NCBI RefSeq assembly: GCF_008843145.1
Contig: NZ_CP030265.1
Coordinates: 711,001 to 775,000, forward strand
DNA: 64,000 bases
Direction of reading: 5' to 3'
Source: Skermanella pratensis
GTDB lineage: Bacteria > Pseudomonadota > Alphaproteobacteria > Azospirillales > Azospirillaceae
Shown: one piece after another, positions 18,932 to 38,826 of the stretch
Layout: each line of letters opens with the position of its first letter
Numbering within the stretch: position 1 is the first letter of the stretch
Program-made: the position numbers and the translations under genes
Notes under the pieces: generated by a model
The model's input: the letters and a program-made list of their open reading frames with translations, nothing else
The model's database searches: none
What the model was told of the DNA's origin: nothing

Positions 18932-18944
18932 GCGGGGGCGCCGG

Positions 18945-20273
18945 TCAGATCCTGACCATTTCCGGCGGGATGAGATCGTGGTTCGCCAAGTGGCTCTTCG
19001 CGGTCAATACGGAGACGCCGAAATACTCGGCGGCTTCCTCTATCCGGTCGTCCGAGTAGTCGCCGTTCATGAACGAGTCCAGTGCATCGATCGGGCACAG
19101 GAGTTCCGCGGCGAAGGCGCGTTGCATCTTCTGGCGCACCGTCTTCGTCTTGGTCGCCGGAAGCCAAGCGTCCGATTCCGGGGCAGTCAGATGGTCGGCC
19201 AGGAAGCGCGCGGCTTCGAACCGGATGCCCGGAGCGTTCCGCTTTCCAAAGACCAGTTTGAGGTGAGCGCCGTCGCCTTCCCGCACCGCCAAGCCGAACG
19301 GGATGCCGGGGCTATGGCCCGAGTCCGGATGGAATGCCTTCTTCGGAGCATCCAATAGTCTCGTCAGTTCCTCGTCGGATATGCCGTCGCTCGATAGCCC
19401 CCAAGCTTCCCGGGCCGCGCCGGCAAGGCTCCTGCCCCAGTCCCACGGGGGCGTTCCATATGGAACGCGATGCCCTCGCAACCCCGAAGGGAGATCCACA
19501 GCCACCCGGACGCCTTTCCCATGGGCCGCTCCGACCGTCTTCCTGATGGCATCCTCGATCCCGGTCGCGGTCCCGGACAAGGCGGGCGCGATCTCGTCCA
19601 ATGCAGCCTCCCCGGCTTCACCGGAAAGCTCCAGCAAGTGGGCAAGTATTTCCTCCGGCGCCTCGTCCGGATCGTATCCAAGGCGCGCCTCCAAGCGACG
19701 CCGGACACTTTCCGCCGGGTCGTCGCGCTCGGCCTTGACCTCTTCCCAAAGCGTGGACAGGTCCTGGCCGACGCCGCCGCATGTCTCCAGACGGGCGATC
19801 ACCTTTGCCAAGAAGTCATCGACGGCTGCCTCGAAGGCAGTTGCCTCCACTGGACACCGGAACTCGGACAGATATCGCACCGGCTCCTCGCAGTTCTGCC
19901 GCGATGCATGGCACACCGCTTCCACGGTCATTCCGTCGCTGGCGAAGGTCAGGCGCGGCCAAAGGAACCCATGGCCCGCCGCACCGACCTCATGGGCCAT
20001 GCGCCAGGACGGGGAGGGGGCGCCGGTCGCAGGATAAGGTTCCCAGCGAAGCCGCCACCAGTTCGCCGCCAACCACATCGCCAAGGGATATGCCGACGCA
20101 TGGACACGATCCTGGACCCCGCGCGACCAGTCGCTTTCAACCCGAGTCGCCACCAGTTCGTCGAAGGCGATGCGAAGCTCGGCGGCCGTCGCGCGATCCT
20201 CGGCCAAGCCGTGCTCGCACGCCTGCCAATGGGCATCGATGGTGAACTCTACCGGCATGTCGCCGCGCTCCAT
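18945..20273 (-). CDS. Degenerate ImmA/IrrE-like protein without the HEXXH zinc motif
   Basis: A protein of 442 residues (437 from the Met at 20258, which has GGAG upstream). The last 110 residues resemble the ImmA/IrrE peptidase fold: RFEAARFLADHLTAPESDAWLP, then QRAFAAELLCPIDALDSF, and a helix-turn-helix-like DDRIEEAAEYFGVSVLTAKSHLANH. Where IrrE proteins have the zinc motif HELGH, this one has ARFLAD, and the third zinc ligand is also missing, so it is predicted not to be a protease. Residues 1-330 match nothing I know. It overlaps the upstream 145-residue gene by 25 bp, so both are one transcription unit. Possible roles are toxin-antitoxin, phage defence or regulation. Confidence 0.75.
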   Translation of the reverse strand: MERGDMPVEFTIDAHWQACEHGLAEDRATAAELRIAFDELVATRVESDWSRGVQDRVHASAYPLAMWLAANWWRLRWEPYPATGAPSPSWRMAHEVGAAGHGFLWPRLTFASDGMTVEAVCHASRQNCEEPVRYLSEFRCPVEATAFEAAVDDFLAKVIARLETCGGVGQDLSTLWEEVKAERDDPAESVRRRLEARLGYDPDEAPEEILAHLLELSGEAGEAALDEIAPALSGTATGIEDAIRKTVGAAHGKGVRVAVDLPSGLRGHRVPYGTPPWDWGRSLAGAAREAWGLSSDGISDEELTRLLDAPKKAFHPDSGHSPGIPFGLAVREGDGAHLKLVFGKRNAPGIRFEAARFLADHLTAPESDAWLPATKTKTVRQKMQRAFAAELLCPIDALDSFMNGDYSDDRIEEAAEYFGVSVLTAKSHLANHDLIPPEMVRI

Positions 20274-20686
20274 CTTTCTCGCACGCTGGCTGCCATGGGA
20301 TCGTTCTCGCCCATGGCGTAGCCGTGATAGATGCCTTGGGTCTCGTTCTCCAGGATTGCTTCGACGGGTTCACCGTTCCGGGCGACCGCCCAGATGTTTT
20401 TTGGCCAGTGGCCTTTCATGGCGTCGCTGACCAAACCGTATGCGGCGCCCTGTTTCAGCAGCCGGGTGGCTTCGGTCCTGTTGAAAACCTTTGCCCTGTC
20501 GCACAAAGTCTTGTGCTGGCGGCCATCGCCGGGCGGTACCAGCCGGAAGTCGCCTTGGTTGCGCTTATGCATTGGATTTCCACCGTATCCGACCCTGGTC
20601 GAAATGCTGTCCAGCCAATCTCTTTCTTCGGTCGTCCGAGGGACGGGGCGGATTGACCGCTTCGGGTTCACTGTACGCTTGGACAT
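20249..20686 (-). CDS. Unrecognised 145-residue protein paired with the IrrE-like gene
   Basis: A basic N-terminus (MSKRTVNPKRSIRPVPRTTEE) is followed by a compact globular region. Distinctive stretches are NPMHKRNQGDFRLVPPGDGR, KTLCDRAKVFNRTEATRLLKQG, HWPKNIWAVARNGEPVEAILENETQGIYHGY. No signal peptide or membrane segment is present. The RTEATRLLKQGAAYGLVS part could be a short helical recognition unit. It is the first gene of a two-gene unit with an AT-rich promoter region (20690-20790). I do not recognise the family. A regulator or antitoxin role for the downstream IrrE-like protein is only inferred from the overlap. Confidence 0.7.
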   Translation of the reverse strand: MSKRTVNPKRSIRPVPRTTEERDWLDSISTRVGYGGNPMHKRNQGDFRLVPPGDGRQHKTLCDRAKVFNRTEATRLLKQGAAYGLVSDAMKGHWPKNIWAVARNGEPVEAILENETQGIYHGYAMGENDPMAASVRERWSAATCR

Positions 20687-20833
20687 CGCTTCGCTAAAAA
20701 TCTATTTATTGGGAAATCACAAAGCTTTGCAACTCTTTCACCGGCAAGGGTGAGAGTCATTCATATAACACTTTTTGGGTATTTCAAAAGTCGAATGGTG
20801 TCGCGGCAGGCTCCGCCGCGGCACCATGCGCAA

Positions 20834-38338: not shown

Positions 38339-38826
38339 TACGGGCGCCGCCTCAACCTTAATTAAATGACTGCCGGACACAGCACATTAAAGAAGTAGGG
38401 GGCTTCTGTTGCCCGGCGCCCCCCGGACCGCGCTTACCCATGGTTAGGCAGCGAGAGCCATACGGTTGTCGTTGGCACTTGTAAAATCAGCCCGATAACG
38501 GCGGTACCATGCCGGGCGAAAATCATGTCTTTACCACGCGCGTCGATCCTGATTCGCCCCCGTAGACCTGCCCGTCCCATACCGGCGGACAGGTTGAACT
38601 GGTCGAGGCGCCGGGTGCCGCCCCCGGGTCCGCAACGCTTATTCCACATGACGTTTATCGCCATAGCCGGATGCTGCCCGACGATTCGAATATAGGCTCT
38701 GCGACCGTGAGAATAAAGAGGCGATGTTGCGGGGAACCGCCCCGCCGTCCGCGACATTCCCGCTCGCTATGGTCTCGGGCGGGTCCAGGCGCTAAAGTGC
38801 GGCGGTCAACGAACGCCGGAGAAAAC
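38339..38826. other. Intergenic region between divergent sspB and thyX
   Basis: 488 bp. It holds the promoters of sspB (minus) and thyX (plus). Frames on both strands are open but show no family resemblance and no good ribosome sites; I see no supported gene. Confidence 0.4.

Follow-up and report, generated by a model that had tools for sequence, protein, structure and literature searches.

Antitoxins with an ImmA domain are usually treated as proteases that work through cleavage. In RosmerTA systems, such antitoxins (RmrA) face diverse toxins (RmrT), often in toxin-first order (PMC10440598), and the peptidases PprI and CapP are activated by single-stranded DNA (ssDNA) (PMC10904395). Zinc-less domains of this M78 fold are also established in regulators; for example, in PrpR, which binds coenzyme A (CoA), the HEXXH residues are missing (PMC6765138). 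Here, we describe a two-gene unit in Skermanella pratensis, located in a 64,000-nucleotide (nt) window of the 5.87-Mb chromosome NZ_CP030265.1 (positions 711,001 to 775,000), in which a large gene for an M78/IrrE-like protein (18945-20273, 442 amino acids [aa]) overlaps a small gene lying upstream of it (20249-20686, 145 aa). Coordinates are those of the window, both genes are on the minus strand, and each range includes the stop codon. A model-made reading of the letters (the original prediction) had proposed that the large protein is a non-peptidase. This is strongly supported, as is its place within a conserved two-gene unit, for which the C-terminal fold, the missing zinc site, the strict pairing and co-evolution of the genes, their cassette behaviour, and the purifying selection on them are established.

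Judged by architecture, RosmerTA is the nearest published analogue: both are two-gene units combining an M78-fold protein with a partner of an unrelated family, with toxin-first order being common in RosmerTA (PMC10440598). In contrast to RosmerTA, the zinc site is replaced here in every homologue, the M78 domain follows a predicted PUR/Whirly-like domain and a linker, and the putatively toxic small partner belongs to a different, undescribed family. Membership of RosmerTA through PADLOC matches was rejected after a control with M78 domains and given the absence of the zinc site expected of an RmrA metallopeptidase. The RmrA profile matched several large-family members (best 2.7e-7) and ordinary M78 domains of the genus and its relatives (up to 1e-15), while the capP profile was matched by several large-family members and by 11 of 11 ordinary M78 controls. 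Because ordinary M78 domains score far better, these matches reflect a shared fold and not membership. For the zinc-less domain taken by itself, PrpR is the nearest analogue, as regulators of the PrpR/RamB/ScfR type also keep a zinc-less M78-like domain as a binding module (PMC6765138); however, they have no obligate small partner, and their architecture (N-terminal XRE helix-turn-helix [HTH] plus zinc-less M78) was set aside since Pfam detects no N-terminal HTH in the large protein. CapP of the cyclic-oligonucleotide-based antiphage signalling system (CBASS) and IrrE/PprI provide the best structural matches to the large C-terminus, yet those are HEXXH metallopeptidases that cleave a repressor, whereas no cleavable repressor or CBASS genes were noted here. 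Identity with CapP of CapHP was likewise rejected: the zinc site is absent, and the partner has no Pfam HTH match, CapH being an HTH repressor.

The M78/IrrE-like domain and its replaced zinc site

Large-protein residues 271-442 (18948-19463) are related to M78 domains by both sequence profile and structure. In profile-profile comparison against M78 domains of the genus and its relatives, the match has a probability of 96.6% (E 5e-10) and places FEAARFLAD on F-x-L-A-H-E-x-x-H. Pfam M78 (PF06114) matches the window protein at E 0.019, below its gathering score, and 15 of 33 homologues at E up to 1 (best 1e-6). Across Pfam, NCBIfam, PADLOC, and PHROGs, the large protein drew nothing beyond weak M78/CapP matches. 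The predicted structure, built from shallow alignments of the window, L009, and L041 sequences only, has a predicted local distance difference test (pLDDT) score of 61, with the C-terminal blocks at 80-90; its residues 271-442 match CapP (Z 11.2), IrrE/PprI (9.5-9.8), and Mycobacterium tuberculosis PrpR (8.9). Retention of the IrrE C-terminal fold thus holds, and the large protein does not fall into a known non-IrrE family.

None of the 33 homologues carries the HEXXH motif and third ligand of a catalytic metal site. As had been read from ARFLAD, both histidines of the motif are gone: the stretch R356-D360 (19194-19208) has Arg for the first and Asp for the second in 33 of 33 homologues, with the Glu position mostly W/L/F/A/M. 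The third ligand is missing too, its stretch (19119-19136) holding R380-Q381 with R385 (33/33), and F387 completes the set of residues that never vary. Since the substituting residues are invariant across 33 homologues, conservation indicates that the zinc site is replaced, beyond mere decay, and the R/D/RQ/R set speaks for some kind of site under maintenance, not for simple degeneration. Use of the IrrE fold for recognition only is plausible. An HTH-like segment (residues 404-431; 18981-19064) lies at the end of the domain. Separately, further HEXXH-less M78 proteins occur in the genus and family (loci L096, L104, L101, and L102; FQLACQIALL, FHLAHQIALL) in open reading frames (ORFs) of about 500 aa; these are likely ScfR/PrpR-type regulators.

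The N-terminal part had been described as a 330-residue extension of unknown kind. The extension stands, but it is not a single block, as it comprises a predicted PUR/Whirly/CdiI-like domain of ~165 residues (residues 6-168; 19770-20258), with the conserved pattern LAxWxAxxWWRLxWEP...AHE...WP, and a predicted helical linker (residues 169-270; 19464-19769). The domain model, of moderate pLDDT, matches CdiI of B. dolosa (5ffp, Z 6.8), PURA (5.7), CdiI of E. cloacae (4ntq, 5.1), Pur-alpha, MRP1/2, and Whirly, with several PUR/Whirly entries at Z 4-6. These matches may represent one general fold and are a lead only, given the modest Z values. On Acidithiobacillus caldus plasmid pLAtc3 (L039 5965-9208), the N-terminal domain occurs alone, with neither the M78 part nor a small partner, in a protein whose gene overlaps an N-6 DNA methylase/restriction-type gene.

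Pairing, co-evolution, and mobility of the unit

Far from being rarely adjacent, the two genes are strictly paired: of the full-length large homologues whose upstream DNA could be read, which range down to 22% identity, 34 of 34 are immediately preceded by a small gene or what remains of one. The small partners of four of these large proteins (22-26% identity) are beyond BLAST detection yet share the family signature. Across 398 genomes, the small-protein profile matched 16 others, every one carrying the large gene, and all plasmid small homologues adjoin a large one. An exception is a diverged small homologue in genome G417 (L121 1375-2542; profile E 4.7e-7) that overlaps a downstream 250-aa gene whose product has no detectable resemblance to the large protein, possibly a partner swap. 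Distance matrices of the small and large proteins from 27 loci correlate at a Mantel r of 0.90, while permutations reached at most 0.42 (0 of 5000). The unit thereby shows the arrangement of type II toxin-antitoxin systems, i.e., two adjacent, coupled, and co-inherited genes.

Homologues are present in 7 other genomes of the order, with 6 more in the class sample (L015, a spurious match, included) and 17 in the phylum sample. Most of these 17 come from a single non-alphaproteobacterial group, to which a Magnetococcales metagenome-assembled genome (MAG) belongs. The L015 match, from genome G218, was discarded, the surrounding ORFs resembling carbonic anhydrase and others. Eight plasmid records and one viral contig add further homologues, with two of the plasmid records, both from Acidithiobacillus, matching the N-terminus only. 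The phage collection held no homologues, and viral scans with three subfamily alignments returned L041 or nothing. On this viral contig (L041 3500-11000), the pair is flanked by transposase fragments on one side and a serine recombinase on the other, with phage tail-like genes alongside. On Tistrella mobilis plasmid pTM2, a small gene (L035 5655-6023) missing from the plasmid gene table lies upstream of a protein named "ImmA/IrrE family metallo-endopeptidase," which itself lacks HEXXH.

The unit behaves as a 1.9-kb cassette (18936-20833), with bounds taken from the empty site of congener G081, in which the flanking deaminase and DNA-glycosylase genes are joined, with few bases between the equivalents of window positions 18935 and 20834. 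As this empty site is clean, the pair together with its leader and terminator-like hairpin is cleanly present or absent. The same site is occupied in 4 of 5 genus members, and the cassette is lower in GC than its flanks. Both genes are under purifying selection, with dN/dS among close congeners of about 0.24 (large) and 0.09-0.10 (small); the deaminase was left out of the flanking-gene controls, and the DNA-glycosylase (UDG) value for L065 is unreliable.

Decay of the unit is one-sided. At four loci a broken small gene, affected by truncation, frameshift, an insertion with stops, or a missing 5' part, stands beside an intact large gene, and at a fifth the small gene is frameshifted and the large gene runs off the contig; the converse, a broken large gene beside an intact small one, was not seen among the loci examined. 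As the large gene is three times longer, the chance of all four lesions falling in the small gene would be about 0.004 if they were random, an argument weakened by MAG errors and shared ancestry. The asymmetry of 4 to 0 fits the small protein as the harmful partner. The S. pratensis genome also holds a decayed second copy (C1:4743600-4744150; L062 8586-9148), running from a 5' piece of the small gene into the C-terminal tail of the large gene.

The small protein and the proposed function of the pair

The small protein appears, from sequence comparison, to be an undescribed conserved family. Alignment of 28 members shows invariant Y34, H40, K41, C62, and W99, the first three forming the Y34...H40-K41 motif (20564-20587), along with a near-invariant Y-[HK]-G-[YW]-P motif (P/A at its last position; residues 120-124; 20315-20329). 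Pfam, NCBIfam, PADLOC, and PHROGs gave no convincing family, and matches to Tox-HDC (E 0.088) and, in two members, Hyd_WA were not used. The predicted order is helix, helix, and small β-sheet, with a pLDDT of 63.5 in one model and under 41 in the other four. The best structural match to this low-confidence model is the CdiA-CT toxin 5t87_H (Z 4.2 over 64 residues), with HigB at Z about 2; Foldseek found nothing significant among Protein Data Bank (PDB) or viral structures, and sequence-profile searches of the PDB yielded no useful result. The model thus hints at a BECR/RelE-like toxin, at a level close to noise. Together with the proximity of the large N-terminus to CdiI (5ffp, 4ntq), this weakly recalls the toxin-immunity pairs of contact-dependent growth inhibition (CDI), in which CdiI is the immunity protein. 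However, the likeness is confined to structure and, for the small protein, lies near noise. The small protein has no sequence match to CDI BECR toxins; there is also no CdiA delivery protein here, and the small gene is free-standing and first.

The best-supported reading, to which we give roughly even credence, takes the pair for a toxin-antitoxin-type module that may act against phages, with the small protein as effector (toxin) and the large protein as antitoxin/sensor. The harmful partner, the binding, the trigger, and the target are what we infer. As a toxin, the small protein would represent an undescribed family and might be an RNase of BECR/RelE-like fold, and the large N-terminal domain would bind this effector or nucleic acid. 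Trigger sensing or autoregulation, with no proteolysis involved, would fall to the zinc-less IrrE/PprI-like domain and the HTH, and coupled translation would keep the two proteins in register. The module would thus work like RosmerTA with ImmA-domain antitoxins, albeit with a pseudo-peptidase as the antitoxin/sensor. As PprI and CapP respond to ssDNA, a nucleic-acid trigger is plausible. A more specific version, which we put forward tentatively and with more doubt than trust, is a toxin-antitoxin or defence family with a pseudo-peptidase as antitoxin, whose invariant R/D/RQ/R site would respond non-proteolytically to phage or damage signals and, via the CdiI/Whirly-like domain, control a toxin family that is itself new. 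A strictly co-evolving pair with an M78 domain unable to act as a metallopeptidase would show this fold serving as a sensor or scaffold in such systems, and would make cleavage-free control directly testable. The toxin-antitoxin or defence role that had been proposed for the pair is favoured by analogy (RosmerTA ImmA antitoxins, weak fold resemblances) and genetics (decay asymmetry, cassette mobility) only.

Several observations weigh against a toxin-antitoxin module. The small-protein model is weak, only one of five being above a pLDDT of 41, and its fold matches lie within noise; those of the large N-terminus are modest as well (Z up to 6.8). E109 and H121 are altered in the most distant small-protein clade, making a simple Glu/His RNase site doubtful. 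The small gene, at a dN/dS of about 0.1, is constrained to the same degree as a housekeeping gene nearby. Faulty MAG assembly may account for some of the broken small genes, and one genus contributes two of the four (shared ancestry). Lastly, neighbours are mostly housekeeping genes.

PUR/Whirly folds are often binders of single-stranded nucleic acid. This counts towards an activation-type defence sensor, in which the two proteins would act jointly, the large one detecting phage nucleic acid or a damage signal and switching on the small effector instead of neutralising it; the closest folds to the large C-terminus are the ssDNA-responsive CapP and PprI (PMC10904395), and a few direct neighbours are defence genes (IetAS, AbiEi, Dpt, and restriction enzymes). 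Such a sensor is nonetheless unlikely, as housekeeping genes make up most of the neighbours and loss affects the small gene more readily than its partner. A conserved defence-island context was rejected because the neighbours are mostly unrelated housekeeping genes.

We deem it quite unlikely that the pair is metabolite-responsive, with the large protein as a PrpR/RamB-style transcription regulator binding a ligand through its zinc-less domain and the small protein as a cofactor or pathway enzyme. The CoA-binding PrpR that lacks HEXXH residues (PMC6765138) is among the structural matches, the large protein has a C-terminal HTH-like segment, and purifying selection is strong; against this, the PrpR-like N-terminal XRE HTH is missing, no metabolic neighbour is conserved across loci, and occurrence on plasmids and on a viral contig, along with the clean empty site, better suits a selfish or defence cassette. 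Purifying selection and a shared locus in 4 of 5 congeners would also fit a cellular function outside conflict (e.g., RNA or translation housekeeping) that is inherited vertically in the genus. We consider this very improbable, given the very patchy distribution (7 of 385 class genomes, 18 of 398 phylum genomes), plasmid occurrence, the empty site, and the decayed second copy in the same genome. Hardly credible is a large protein that remains a peptidase with a non-canonical site of conserved R, D, and Q: five polar residues are invariant at the old zinc site, yet no metal ligand set is left, with Arg for the first His, Asp for the second, and a hydrophobic residue at the catalytic Glu position.

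Gene overlap, leader, and other features of the window

The original prediction of a translationally coupled 145-residue partner is borne out by an overlapping small gene. The annotated overlap is 25 nt, whereas homologue starts align with the sixth codon of the large gene (M6; 20258), which is preceded by a GGAG Shine-Dalgarno ribosome-binding site and is our preferred start; for this reason, the true overlap of the window pair is probably 10 nt. Among relatives' pairs, an overlap of 4 nt is commonest.

The expected promoter location is a low-GC leader upstream of the small gene (20687-20791, minus strand). An AT-rich promoter had been proposed; the low GC is confirmed (0.55 upstream of the pair versus about 0.70), but a search of the leader found no sigma-70-type site. 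RNA-family searches across the region found none. Beyond the leader, a 16-nt inverted repeat followed by T's (20792-20830, minus strand) resembles a terminator for the upstream DNA-glycosylase gene, lying within the cassette and absent from the empty site. Elsewhere in the window, a transfer-messenger RNA gene is found on the minus strand at 38353-38694, with the tag ANDNRMALAA.
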